NCBI RefSeq assembly: GCF_028464145.1
Contig: NZ_JAQPCG010000005.1
Coordinates: 1 to 64,000 of the forward strand
Direction of reading: 5' to 3'
Source of the DNA: Maribacter sp. PR1
GTDB taxonomy: Bacteria > Bacteroidota > Bacteroidia > Flavobacteriales > Flavobacteriaceae
Length of the DNA stretch: 64,000 nucleotides
Shown here: positions 39,848 through 55,720 of the stretch, in pieces
Position numbering within the stretch: the stretch's first letter is position 1
Layout: every line of letters starts with the position of its first letter
Notes under the pieces: generated by a model
What the model saw: the letters and a program-made list of their open reading frames with translations, nothing else
Database searches by the model: none
Told to the model about the DNA's origin: nothing
Made by a program: the position numbers and the translations under genes

Positions 39848-39880
39848 AATGAAATTTAACTTTTGTTAAAAAAAATGTTA

Positions 39881-39921
39881 GGTCGAGCCGTCATATCGAG
39901 CGCAGTCGAGATGCGAGACCT
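39881..39921 (+). repeat. Dispersed palindromic repeat, copy 1
   Basis: Starts ggtcgagccgtcatatcgag and continues with the family core tcgagcgcagtcgaga, ending gcgagacct. The same 40-base form recurs at 44047-44092 and near 55675-55720. It lies between the DUF4202 and siroheme genes. Confidence 0.85.
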
Positions 39922-40617: not shown

Positions 40618-40668
40618 AGTTTTGCTAAAGAATTTAACAGTATCTGGTCACTAAATATAACTTATTGT

Positions 40669-40735
40669 CACCTCGAGCGCAGTCGAGAGGTCTTGAAGCC
40701 ATTATGCACAAATTAGGTCTCGACTGCGCTCGACC
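40669..40735. repeat. Dispersed repeat, inverted pair
   Basis: A copy of the core tcgagcgcagtcgaga (40673-40688) faces an inverted copy tctcgactgcgctcga (40718-40733). Together they can form a long hairpin in the gap after the siroheme gene, a possible convergent or transcript-ending structure. Confidence 0.85.
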
Positions 40736-40789
40736 GAACAAATAAACATTATAAGGCTTCATCTGGCGAATTTAATGTATTAAACAAAA

Positions 40790-43868: not shown

Positions 43869-44245
43869 TTGATTTTGCACAAAAATCCTTGAGTTTTAGC
43901 TAAAATAAACGCTTTTCTTTGTTTTACTTTACCGTAATTTTAGAGGGTAAAATCTATCAATACCTCAAAAAATAATATGTATTCTATTGAAATAGTCAAA
44001 TTTTACCTAATAAAAGCGGTAATCCATTATTAATAACAATTTAGAGGTCAGGTCGAGCTGTCACATCGAGCGCAGTCGAGATGCGAGACCTAAGGTTAGA
44101 TTTGTAAAGTCACATAACCTCTGGACTTTAGTTTATCTTGAGTGAAGGCAAAAGGCTAAATGGAAAGGTTGAAATTATGAAAACAACTCGTTTTTTAGGG
44201 CTTAAAGAGGCTTTCTTTTTTTAAAAAAACGAATGATACTATTGA
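43869..44245. other. Intergenic region with one repeat copy, probable catabolic promoter
   Basis: The 377 bases between the AraC gene and the SDR gene are A+T-rich and hold the repeat copy at 44047-44092. They should contain the promoter of the catabolic genes downstream. I saw no unambiguous -33/-7 pair. Confidence 0.4.
44047..44092 (+). repeat. Dispersed palindromic repeat
   Basis: A full copy of the form ggtcgagctgtcacatcgag plus core cgcagtcgag and ending gcgagacct. It stands alone between the regulator and the first catabolic gene. Confidence 0.85.
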
Positions 44246-45800: not shown

Positions 45801-45837
45801 TAAGTAAACAGATTGCCCGTAATTTTTCTTAATACGC

Positions 45838-45913
45838 TGTCACCTCGAGCGCAGTCGAGAGGTCATTAAATATAAAGTGTTTGAAATGAGGTCTCGACTG
45901 CGCTCGACCTGAC
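45838..45913. repeat. Dispersed repeat, inverted pair
   Basis: A core copy (tcgagcgcagtcgaga from 45845) faces its inverse (tctcgactgcgctcga from 45892) over a 31-base spacer. It sits between the hydratase and the DUF3237 gene, the same arrangement as at 40669-40735. Confidence 0.85.
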
Positions 45914-45966
45914 AGTAAGATAGTTTTGTTATAAATTACGGATACTCAATAACTAAAAGGAAGGAT

Positions 45967-50622: not shown

Positions 50623-50633
50623 AATTATTGTCC

Positions 50634-50905
50634 GGTCGAGCTGTCACATCGAGTCTTTCGGCGGCGCTCAAGATAAACTAAAGTCGAGATGCGAGACCTC
50701 AAGAACAAAATGAAAACCAATTATGTCACGTCGAGCGCAGTCGAGACCTAAAAATAAACTAGGGTCCATAAATGTCAGGTCGAGCGCAGTCGAGACCTAA
50801 AAATAAACTAGGGTCCATAAATGTCAGGTCGAGCGCAGTCGAGACCTCAAAAAAAGATAAGAATTCAATGTATGTCAGGTCGAGCGCAGTCGAGACCTCA
50901 AAAAT
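50634..50905 (+). repeat. Repeat block with four tandem core copies, left flank of GIY-YIG gene
   Basis: The block begins with the long repeat form (ggtcgagctgtcacatcgag) interrupted by about 40 bases. It then carries four direct copies of tcgagcgcagtcgagacct with cores at 50731, 50780, 50829 and 50880. The middle two units are nearly identical over their full 49 bases, a sign of recent tandem duplication. The last copy ends 10 bases before the start of the nuclease gene. Confidence 0.9.
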
Positions 50906-50915
50906 TGAAAGGAGT

Positions 50916-51230
50916 ATGAAAGCCTATTATGTCTATATTCTTGAATGCAATGATGGGATGCTGTATACCGGAGTCACCAATGATGTAACGCGTCGGGTGG
51001 ATGAACATCAAAAAGGACTGAACAAAACCTGTTTCACCTATAAACGACGCCCGGTTAAGTTACTATGGCATGAAATGTTCAATGATATAGAACAAGCTAT
51101 TTTCTTTGAAAAGAAAATAAAAAAATGGAGTAAAGCAAAAAAGCAAGCCTTAGCGCATGGAGATGAAAAGATGTTAAGAATATTGGCGGAATGCAGAAAT
51201 GCAAGCCATTATGATTTTAGACCTGAGTGA
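50916..51230 (+). CDS. Small GIY-YIG nuclease, UPF0213/YhbQ-like
   Basis: A 104-residue protein from the ATG at 50916, preceded by a good ribosome-binding site (aaaggag). The frame stays open back to 50772, but that part merely translates the repeats (VRSSAVETS twice). The GIY-YIG core is VYILECNDGMLYTGVTND at residues 6-23. The catalytic-type Arg is in VTRRVDEH and the late Glu in AIFFEKKIKKWSKAKK. Single-domain proteins of this kind nick or cut DNA. The gene is enclosed by inverted copies of the dispersed repeat and unrelated to the aromatic genes around it, so it is likely a mobile passenger or the driver of the repeats. Confidence 0.85.
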   Translation: MKAYYVYILECNDGMLYTGVTNDVTRRVDEHQKGLNKTCFTYKRRPVKLLWHEMFNDIEQAIFFEKKIKKWSKAKKQALAHGDEKMLRILAECRNASHYDFRPE

Positions 51231-51309
51231 GGTCTCGACTGCGCTCGACCGGACAAAACTCGACTGTCCTTCAACTGCGCTCAAGACAAGCTTCTCGATG
51301 TGACAACCC
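51229..51309 (-). repeat. Inverted repeat copy, right flank of GIY-YIG gene
   Basis: Directly at the nuclease stop codon the sequence ggtctcgactgcgctcgacc appears, the exact inverse of the left flank core. A diverged inverse copy follows (cttcaactgcgctcaagaca), then ctcgatgtgacaa near 51294-51306, inverse of the outer left end. The gene is thus framed by nested inverted repeats. Confidence 0.85.
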
Positions 51310-51372
51310 GTACTGAGGTATCGAAAAAAAATAGAATTGAAGGATAAAAATGAAACTAATTAAAATATCAAA

Positions 51373-52562: not shown

Positions 52563-52633
52563 TGTCACATCGAGCGGAGTCGAGATGTTTTTGCCGACCT
52601 TTCGACCGCCCTTCGACTGCGCTCAGGACAGGC
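52563..52633 (+). repeat. Dispersed repeat, diverged pair
   Basis: A copy with one change (atcgagcggagtcgagat at 52569-52586) is followed by an inverted diverged copy (cttcgactgcgctcaggaca, about 52611-52630). It lies in the gap after the esterase-like gene. Confidence 0.75.
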
Positions 52634-54136: not shown

Positions 54137-54366
54137 GTCAGGTCGAGCTGTCACATCGAGCCTTTCGTATTGCTCCGCAAGGTGCGTTCAAAGAAAACAC
54201 GTTTTCTTTTCACCCAATGCTCAAGATAAACTAAAGTCGAGATGCGAGGCCTCAAAAGGATAGAATACAAAAAAATGTCAGGTCGAGCGCAGTCGAGACC
54301 TCGTTCAAGATACGATTGTCGAATAACCCCTCGACTCCCTTCGACTGCGCTCAGGGCAGGCCGCTC
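54137..54366 (+). repeat. Dispersed repeat block between oxygenase and reductase
   Basis: Holds a long-form copy interrupted by about 60 bases (54139-54252), a core copy (54281-54300), and an inverted diverged copy (tcgactgcgctcagggca near 54341-54358). The block separates two genes that must work together. Confidence 0.85.
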
Positions 54367-55476: not shown

Positions 55477-55720
55477 TGTCACTTCGAGCGCAGTCGAGAA
55501 GTGCTTTAACAACGTAATGTCGAAGGGAGTCGAAGTGTATTGTCACGAAACTGAGCAGCCTGTTCTGAGCATAGCCGAAGCAGGACCTCAAAACGACCTG
55601 AAACCAAAAATGTCAGGTCGAGAAGCCTGTGCTGAGCGTGGACACTGAGCGTAGCCGAAGTGAAGTCGAAAAATGTCAGGTCGAGCTGTCACATCGAGCG
55701 CAGTCGAGATGCGAGACCTC
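55477..55720 (+). repeat. Dispersed repeat block at the edge of the catabolic cluster
   Basis: At least three copies, some diverged, occupy 55477-55500, 55590-55670 and 55675-55720, the last in the full 40-base form. It is the rightmost set seen. After it come 275 A+T-rich, gene-free bases leading to the defence-like island. Confidence 0.8.

Follow-up and report, generated by a model that had tools for sequence, protein, structure and literature searches.

Two families of tagged hairpins come closest to the element described here. In the CGTC-tagged superfamily of repetitive extragenic palindromic (REP) sequences (Di Nocera et al. 2013; PMC3733652), the repeats are small dispersed hairpins occurring predominantly as HH dimers; their stems of 8-9 bp open with two complementary A/T positions, and their loops have 4-5 nt. 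According to the same paper they are found in Bacteroidetes, with G. forsetii among the CGTC-positive species, the dRS3 repeat of Neisseria is equated with CGTC-1, and as of 2013 the repeats were apparently without a dedicated transposase. In the second family, REP sequences and their paired forms (REPINs) are served by a REP-associated tyrosine transposase (RAYT) and are GTAG-tagged (PMC3116915, PMC2817692). We describe here a gene for a small GIY-YIG nuclease that is bracketed by tagged hairpins in a 64,000-nucleotide stretch of Maribacter sp. PR1 (contig NZ_JAQPCG010000005.1, positions 1 to 64,000; in the following called the window). An original prediction, made from the sequence of the window, had seen in this locus a REP system with a GIY-YIG nuclease replacing the RAYT, and this is strongly supported by flank tests, stem covariation, clade-specific hairpin classes and co-occurrence in genomes.

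Like the CGTC-tagged REPs, the window elements carry an unpaired tag of the CGTC/TGTC type at one end and form dimers, whereas they differ in having four covarying pairs, a GA/TC step with a GA bulge and a 6-nt loop, and in that a GIY-YIG gene is bracketed by the hairpins where no transposase had been found for the CGTC repeats. With the REP/RAYT system they share dispersed tagged hairpins, which bracket a gene and also occur as inverted pairs without it; however, the bracketed protein is of the GIY-YIG type and not a tyrosine (HUH) transposase, and the elements carry TGTC or a near variant instead of GTAG, as read from the sequence, the covariation pattern described below having required GTC and hence being no test of tag identity. 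Among the hits listed in searches of the open-licence PMC literature, judged by titles, hit counts and the beginnings of abstracts, no paper linking GIY-YIG nucleases to tagged REPs was seen. A site-specific single-strand GIY-YIG nuclease of Neisseria, Ssn, has reportedly been tied to a genome-wide repeat by Chenal and colleagues in 2025. By that description, the window nuclease would resemble Ssn in being a small GIY-YIG nuclease with a genome-wide repeat.

The nuclease gene (50916-51230, plus strand) encodes a UPF0213/YhbQ-like protein of 104 amino acids. The open reading frame as listed starts at 50772, within the repeats, and the start codon is placed at 50916, where most homologues begin with M-K. 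The protein matched PF01541 with 66.3 bits (cut-off 22.6; E 3e-18), and its profile matched two solved structures, 1zg2 (6.3e-18) and 1ywl (3.1e-14), both UPF0213 and entered in PDB as hypothetical proteins. In an alignment of 15 homologues, Y7, Y17, R27, H31 and E65 were invariant, which we take to be the active-site residues (Y, Y, R, H, E) of GIY-YIG enzymes; by family match and these residues, the protein is a member of the GIY-YIG superfamily (PF01541) of the UPF0213 type. Ratios of nonsynonymous to synonymous substitution (dN/dS) of 0.17 against the relative G255, 0.06 against the relative G261 and 0.05 between these two, the synonymous sites being saturated or nearly so in both comparisons that involve G261, show that the gene evolves under purifying selection.

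Upstream of this gene stand four direct copies of TCGAGCGCAGTCGAGACCT, in units that begin at 50724, 50773, 50822 and 50873 with a spacing of 49-51 bp. Each of them holds a tagged hairpin on the plus strand (50724-50749, with the outermost stem pair mismatched; 50773-50798; 50822-50847; and 50873-50898, which is closest to the start codon and forms the left end of a minimal unit). The exact inverse of TCGAGCGCAGTCGAGACCT starts at the TGA stop codon (51228-51230), where 28 nt (51228-51255) form an arm with 96% complementarity to two upstream copies and an inverse tagged hairpin (51230-51255, minus strand) touches the stop codon as the right end of the minimal unit. The TGTC tags of the bracketing hairpins point outward. 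Further out, 50637-50653 and 51294-51310 are mutually inverse over 17 nt (88%). All of this reproduces the arrangement originally predicted, with the qualification that the left outer end, while matching inversely as stated, is better described as nested hairpins (50629-50698, plus strand): an outer hairpin, GGTCGAGC...CGAGACC, contains a second tagged element, the latter's own loop being replaced. The right outer end is a remnant of a further element, the inverse of TGTCACATCGAG (51294-51305, minus strand).

At homologous loci the association recurs. A tagged hairpin was found within 200 bp of the nuclease gene on at least one side at 81 of 90 loci and on both sides at 67, compared to 51 (2.6%) and 8 (0.4%) of 1982 mutually overlapping control windows of the same size, taken at least 900 bp off in the same loci. 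Of these 90 loci, 30 (the window's own included) had been returned by the search and 60 were hand-picked down the list, some being skipped for short contigs or for adjoining one already taken and none being chosen for its repeats. As the tag patterns were written after viewing the flanks of the same 90 loci, a motif-free comparison and a second set of loci are the fairer tests. An inverse-similarity score between the two flanks, calculated without any motif, reached at least 12 at 59 of the 90 loci versus 0.8% of the 1982 controls. The second, named set comprised the 80 best-scoring relatives, whose titles mostly name Flavobacteriaceae and otherwise Dyadobacter, Chitinophagales, Mucilaginibacter and others; here 75 of 80 loci had a tagged hairpin on at least one side and 50 on both, compared to 1.0% and 0 of 2395 controls, with a partial overlap between the sets (8 of the 80 share an identical gene stretch, 72 do not). 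Up to 100 bp from the gene the hairpins number 8-9 per kb per locus, a density that drops below 0.3 past 600 bp (57 long loci), and none of the other four GIY-YIG matches of the Maribacter sp. PR1 genome had a tagged hairpin within 200 bp. Similarly, 9 of 20 loci fetched from other families of the phylum passed the motif-free score versus 16 of 499 controls, and many of the 20 show other hairpins by eye. The pairing of hairpin and nuclease is confirmed and is general, recurring around more than 100 related genes. On plasmids the gene is rare, with matches to the nuclease in 5 of 72,556 records, four of which were read by eye: two alphaproteobacterial plasmids (Methylobacterium, Sphingomonas) and a cyanobacterial one (Planktothrix) have inverse hairpins of other sequence beside or in the end of the gene, and no inverse hairpins were seen beside the gene of the Cupriavidus plasmid. 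On plasmid p1 of Planktothrix agardhii (L350, 1501-1785) the GIY-YIG gene lies between an MmeI-type restriction gene and the DISARM gene drmA, with other TGTC-tagged hairpins nearby.

Copy numbers in whole genomes agree with this partnership. The 16-mer TCGAGCGCAGTCGAGA has 31 exact copies in the 4.73-Mb genome of Maribacter sp. PR1 and 45 with up to two mismatches, while its reversed control gave none with up to two mismatches, which excludes a chance origin of the repeat. A search through 249 genomes of the same family gave nuclease homologues in 158, with up to nine per genome, and none in 91. The median number of exact copies of the core GAGCGCAGTCGA was 16.5 in genomes with a close homologue (E <= 1e-28; n = 48), 3 with a middling one (n = 47), 1 with a weak one (n = 63) and 0 without any (n = 91), the reversed control having three matches in all 249 genomes. 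Loop variants are left out of these core counts, and variant or degraded elements were seen by eye beside the gene in the seven genomes that have a close homologue and yet hold fewer than five core-A copies. Nuclease and repeats do not occur apart at equal frequency, five or more copies of core A or B being present in 100 of the 158 genomes with a homologue and 12 of the 91 without; five was taken as the threshold since the reversed control of pattern B was not empty (0-3 matches per genome). In 5 of these 12 genomes, a profile search did give a relative of the nuclease.

The hairpin itself was defined by covariation in 106 distinct 26-base elements, pooled from the loci and selected by the GTC of the tag and GAGCNNNGTCGA alone. 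Stem pairs 6-25, 7-24, 8-23 and 9-22 were Watson-Crick pairs in 83, 97, 97 and 99 of the 106 elements, where the best of 500 shuffles gave 49, 46, 71 and 71; as elements of related genomes were pooled, the shuffles overstate independence. The next outward pair was not conserved (32 of 106 Watson-Crick, below the shuffle mean), and when partners were slid by one or two places no stem pair rose above 71. Tag, GAGC, GTCGA and a GA/TC step bulged by two bases (GA) do not vary, which holds by construction because the pattern required these letters; the loop has 6 nt. A stem that tolerates any pairing sequence, together with a recurring tag, loop region and bulge, suggests that a folded single strand is recognised and not duplex DNA.

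Three hairpin classes were distinguished: A1, T-CGAGCGNAGTCGAG-A; A2, C-TGAGCGNAGTCGAA-G, in which two inner covarying pairs are exchanged together compared to A1; and B, CGAGTG...GTATCGAG, with a variable loop. Mapped on a tree of the 90 nucleases, which is based on few columns and has many open forks, the classes require 4 changes, and with the unlabelled loci counted as a fourth class 10 changes versus 45.4 after shuffling. The exceptions are an A2 locus in the B clade (L097, on a long branch), A1 outside the A1 clade at L077, L079 and L084, A2 outside the A2 clade at L083, L085, L119 and L122, four loci with mixed labels and 10 unlabelled ones. In the seven genomes whose fetched genes represent more than one clade (A1, A2 and B in G207; A1 and A2 in G138, G168 and G248; A2 and B in G013 and G244; A1 and B in G148), every one of the 15 fetched genes, fewer than these genomes hold in total, has the hairpin class of its own clade; by our own arithmetic, a random assignment of classes within the seven genomes would give this in 1 of 384 cases. 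G106 is not counted here, one of the three genes fetched from it being unplaced, nor is G005, where one of two was unlabelled. The class of the hairpin follows the clade of the nuclease, also within single genomes, and both have diversified together. In class B (L093-L118) the loop differs from copy to copy and, by eye, in many cases makes up a further inverted repeat.

The tagged-element pattern detected 15 elements in the whole window, all within 39.9-55.7 kb and mostly intergenic; four of them make up two inverted pairs without a nuclease, in agreement with the predicted single and paired copies of this region. The REPIN-like pair at 40666-40740 (predicted fold of 40664-40742, z -5.3) lies in an intergenic stretch whose counterpart in G255 is much shorter, and the second pair at 45838-45914 also folds strongly as predicted DNA (45836-45916, z -9.5). 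On the plus strand, nested single elements are present at 39876-39920, 44046-44090 and 55674-55718, and single ones at 52563-52588 (core GAGCGGAGTCGA), 55477-55502 and 54276-54301, the last inside a 356-bp gap that is absent from G255 and G261, where the flanking genes abut. Among the remaining elements, those at 52613 and 54341 on the minus strand have the same core with another left part (GCCTGTCCTGAGCGCAGTCGAAGGG or similar). Nested hairpins, in which the loop of one element takes up another complete element, always at the same point behind GGTCGAGC, are found repeatedly in the genus (18 distinct strings by pattern, from fetched overlapping loci, one of them from another family). They hint at the loop as a breakage point but may stem from one amplified event.

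Comparison between relatives bears on the prediction that the unit may be mobile. At 94 of 164 loci, tagged elements standing inversely to each other on the left and on the right delimit a unit, with a median length of 393 bp. Its ends were compared in 430 ordered non-syntenic unit pairs of at least 75% identity (62 further pairs were syntenic), and at the right end the limit of homology agrees with the outer tag to within 6 nt in 313 of the 430, with 52 running beyond and 65 falling short. The tag was also found at the ends of several homology blocks that had been detected without any motif. In a survey of the genus (36 genomes, 8 candidate places scored in each), long DNA matches of the nuclease gene were found among the listed places of five genomes besides the window's own. 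In G255 the gene is at the same place as in the window, and in G261 further along the same gene cluster, behind a reductase gene, the window's nuclease site being represented there by 17 bp between two neighbouring matches. G254, G260 and G274 have it at a second locus, for which 30 loci were fetched, 21 of them with both flanks, and read by eye. The unit is full in G254 and G260, and also in G274; 11 of the 21 loci have a single, often decayed hairpin and no gene, 1 has a remnant, 2 are of unclear state and 5 are empty sites of the kind sought. In a tree of a neighbouring gene, G260 groups with the empty-site genome G263, apart from G254, and the units of G254 and G260 have 87.6% identity, compared to 75.2% and 74.5% for the genes at their flanks. 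Units closer than their flanks, together with the position of G260, point to a later arrival at the same spot or to a transfer between both; going by the tree alone, ancestral presence with many losses at this locus may be the alternative. Between the window and G261 the unit is 82% and the flanking genes are 78% identical. Mobility of the unit is thus supported by full, gene-less and empty states, a different place in the cluster and a unit pair closer than its flanks, as far as such comparisons of relatives go, and falls short of proof. For the predicted origin of single copies as offspring of the unit, the alternative would be older sites into which the gene moved.

Several established routes of movement were rejected. 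Target duplications of at least 3 nt were seen in 5 of 93 units versus a null mean of 5.8, and in having no target-site duplication above null the unit is unlike a classical insertion sequence or a miniature inverted-repeat transposable element. Spread on plasmids or phages is not indicated by the 5 plasmid records, nor by 16 phage records, none of which covers over 80% of the protein. An in-frame hairpin element was also found in the linker of the Maribacter sp. PR1 metG gene (C1:686228; L007 position 1501; L154-L183), where it encodes the peptide RSSAVETS; in different species of the genus this linker holds, in frame by eye, A1 (two stems), A2-like or class B hairpins, and in others remnants or none (30 of 30 loci read). 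As an exact insertion test metG was discarded, since the flanks differ too much for exact borders.

From these results we consider it probable that the locus is a selfish unit of the REP/RAYT kind, in which a hydrolytic nuclease recognises, and probably cuts, its hairpins as single strands. The statistical association makes the nuclease the likely partner of a repeat class that had none, and solo and paired hairpins would probably be both substrates of the nuclease and derivatives of the unit. The compact unit, TGTC-hairpin, GIY-YIG nuclease gene and inverse hairpin ending in GACA, would encode an enzyme that knows its target by the TGTC(A) tag, by the bulge and by the loop region with its fixed GAGC...GTCGA, and asks of the 4-bp stem only that it pairs. 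GIY-YIG enzymes cut by hydrolysis, and we therefore propose that a hairpin is cut on transiently single-stranded DNA, such as the lagging-strand template, DNA under repair or incoming DNA, and that the break is repaired from another element. The nick would probably fall in or beside the loop, and repair by copying another element or unit could spread the unit together with its gene-less derivatives, inverted pairs and singles. We infer cutting, its position and strand, the single-strand specificity and the copying step from the features described above.

Several observations weigh against this proposal. To our knowledge, no strand-transfer chemistry is available for the insertion step, GIY-YIG enzymes being hydrolytic, and no transposition was observed. 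The left end of homology coincides with the tag in only 121 of the 430 pairs (110 run beyond, 199 fall short), so that the boundaries of the unit are well marked on the right and less so on the left. Differences between the REP clusters of the window and G255 reach beyond the hairpins, which leaves no clean borders and led us to reject this comparison as a case of precise REP insertion. As predicted DNA folds, a pair of single hairpins, a nested element and an element of class B were no more stable than shuffled sequences (z +0.3, +0.9, +2.1 and -0.3). The expectation that every gene of this type is flanked held for most loci, with no recognised hairpin at 9 of 90 and 5 of 80; variant elements were seen by eye at at least three of the latter five. 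In addition, 7 of the 12 repeat-bearing genomes without a homologue had no such nuclease even by profile search, among them G080 with 43 exact cores in a 99% complete assembly of 3 contigs, and the repeats are hence able to outlast a recognisable nuclease or to do without one.

Of the other explanations, a housekeeping role survives best, and we regard it as rather unlikely. The nuclease would cut single-stranded repeats to tune natural transformation or repair, as is said of the meningococcal enzyme Ssn and its repeat; the repeats would be maintained as sites for this purpose, and the bracketing would serve autoregulation or recombination insulation without any movement. The shared protein superfamily, the genome-wide repeats and the purifying selection would all fit, whereas empty and gene-less sites, the different place in the cluster of a relative, genomes with as many as nine homologues and a unit pair closer than its flanks give the system a selfish look. 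More doubtful still is a passenger or homing gene, for which older REP pairs, spread by another enzyme, would be the landing sites and the nuclease gene would home into pairs that it can cut. Solo hairpins do share a site with full units, and some genomes have repeats without the nuclease; however, in non-syntenic units similarity runs from the gene through the hairpin to the right-hand tag in the 313 of 430 ordered pairs, the hairpins differ in class according to the clade of their nuclease, and, unlike in classical homing, the supposed recognition sites are intact at both unit ends (67 of the 90 loci have hairpins on both sides). That the hairpins are bystanders, terminators or mRNA stabilisers in short gaps around small genes, would agree with the mostly intergenic window elements and the strong folding of the inverted pairs but is very improbable, as chance is unlikely too, given the repeat counts, both-side hairpins in just 0.4% of control windows, a stem covariation tied to the tag and a clade-specific loop, and the hairpin-less flanks of the four other GIY-YIG genes.

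Returning to the selfish unit, a wider version can be put forward tentatively. Across phyla, the TGTC/CGTC-tagged superfamily of hairpins might owe its spread to small GIY-YIG nucleases, the mobilising enzymes hitherto missing; this would then be a separate class of minimal mobile DNA of about 390 bp, working by hydrolytic single-strand hairpin cutting and copy repair without a transposase. The hairpins found in other families of the phylum and those beside the homologues on the Methylobacterium, Sphingomonas and Planktothrix plasmids fit this idea. The 2025 paper on Ssn may cover part of the link between nuclease and repeat; should it already connect Bacteroidota nucleases of this kind with repeats at their flanks, what is new would be reduced to the class matching and the evidence for mobility. 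A bracketing nuclease matched to its hairpins by clade is a candidate enzyme for CGTC-type repeats that lack a dedicated transposase, and genome G207, where A1, A2 and B are found side by side, provides natural sets of enzyme and substrate for a direct test of specificity. The finding suggests a chemistry for mobile elements that needs no strand transferase.
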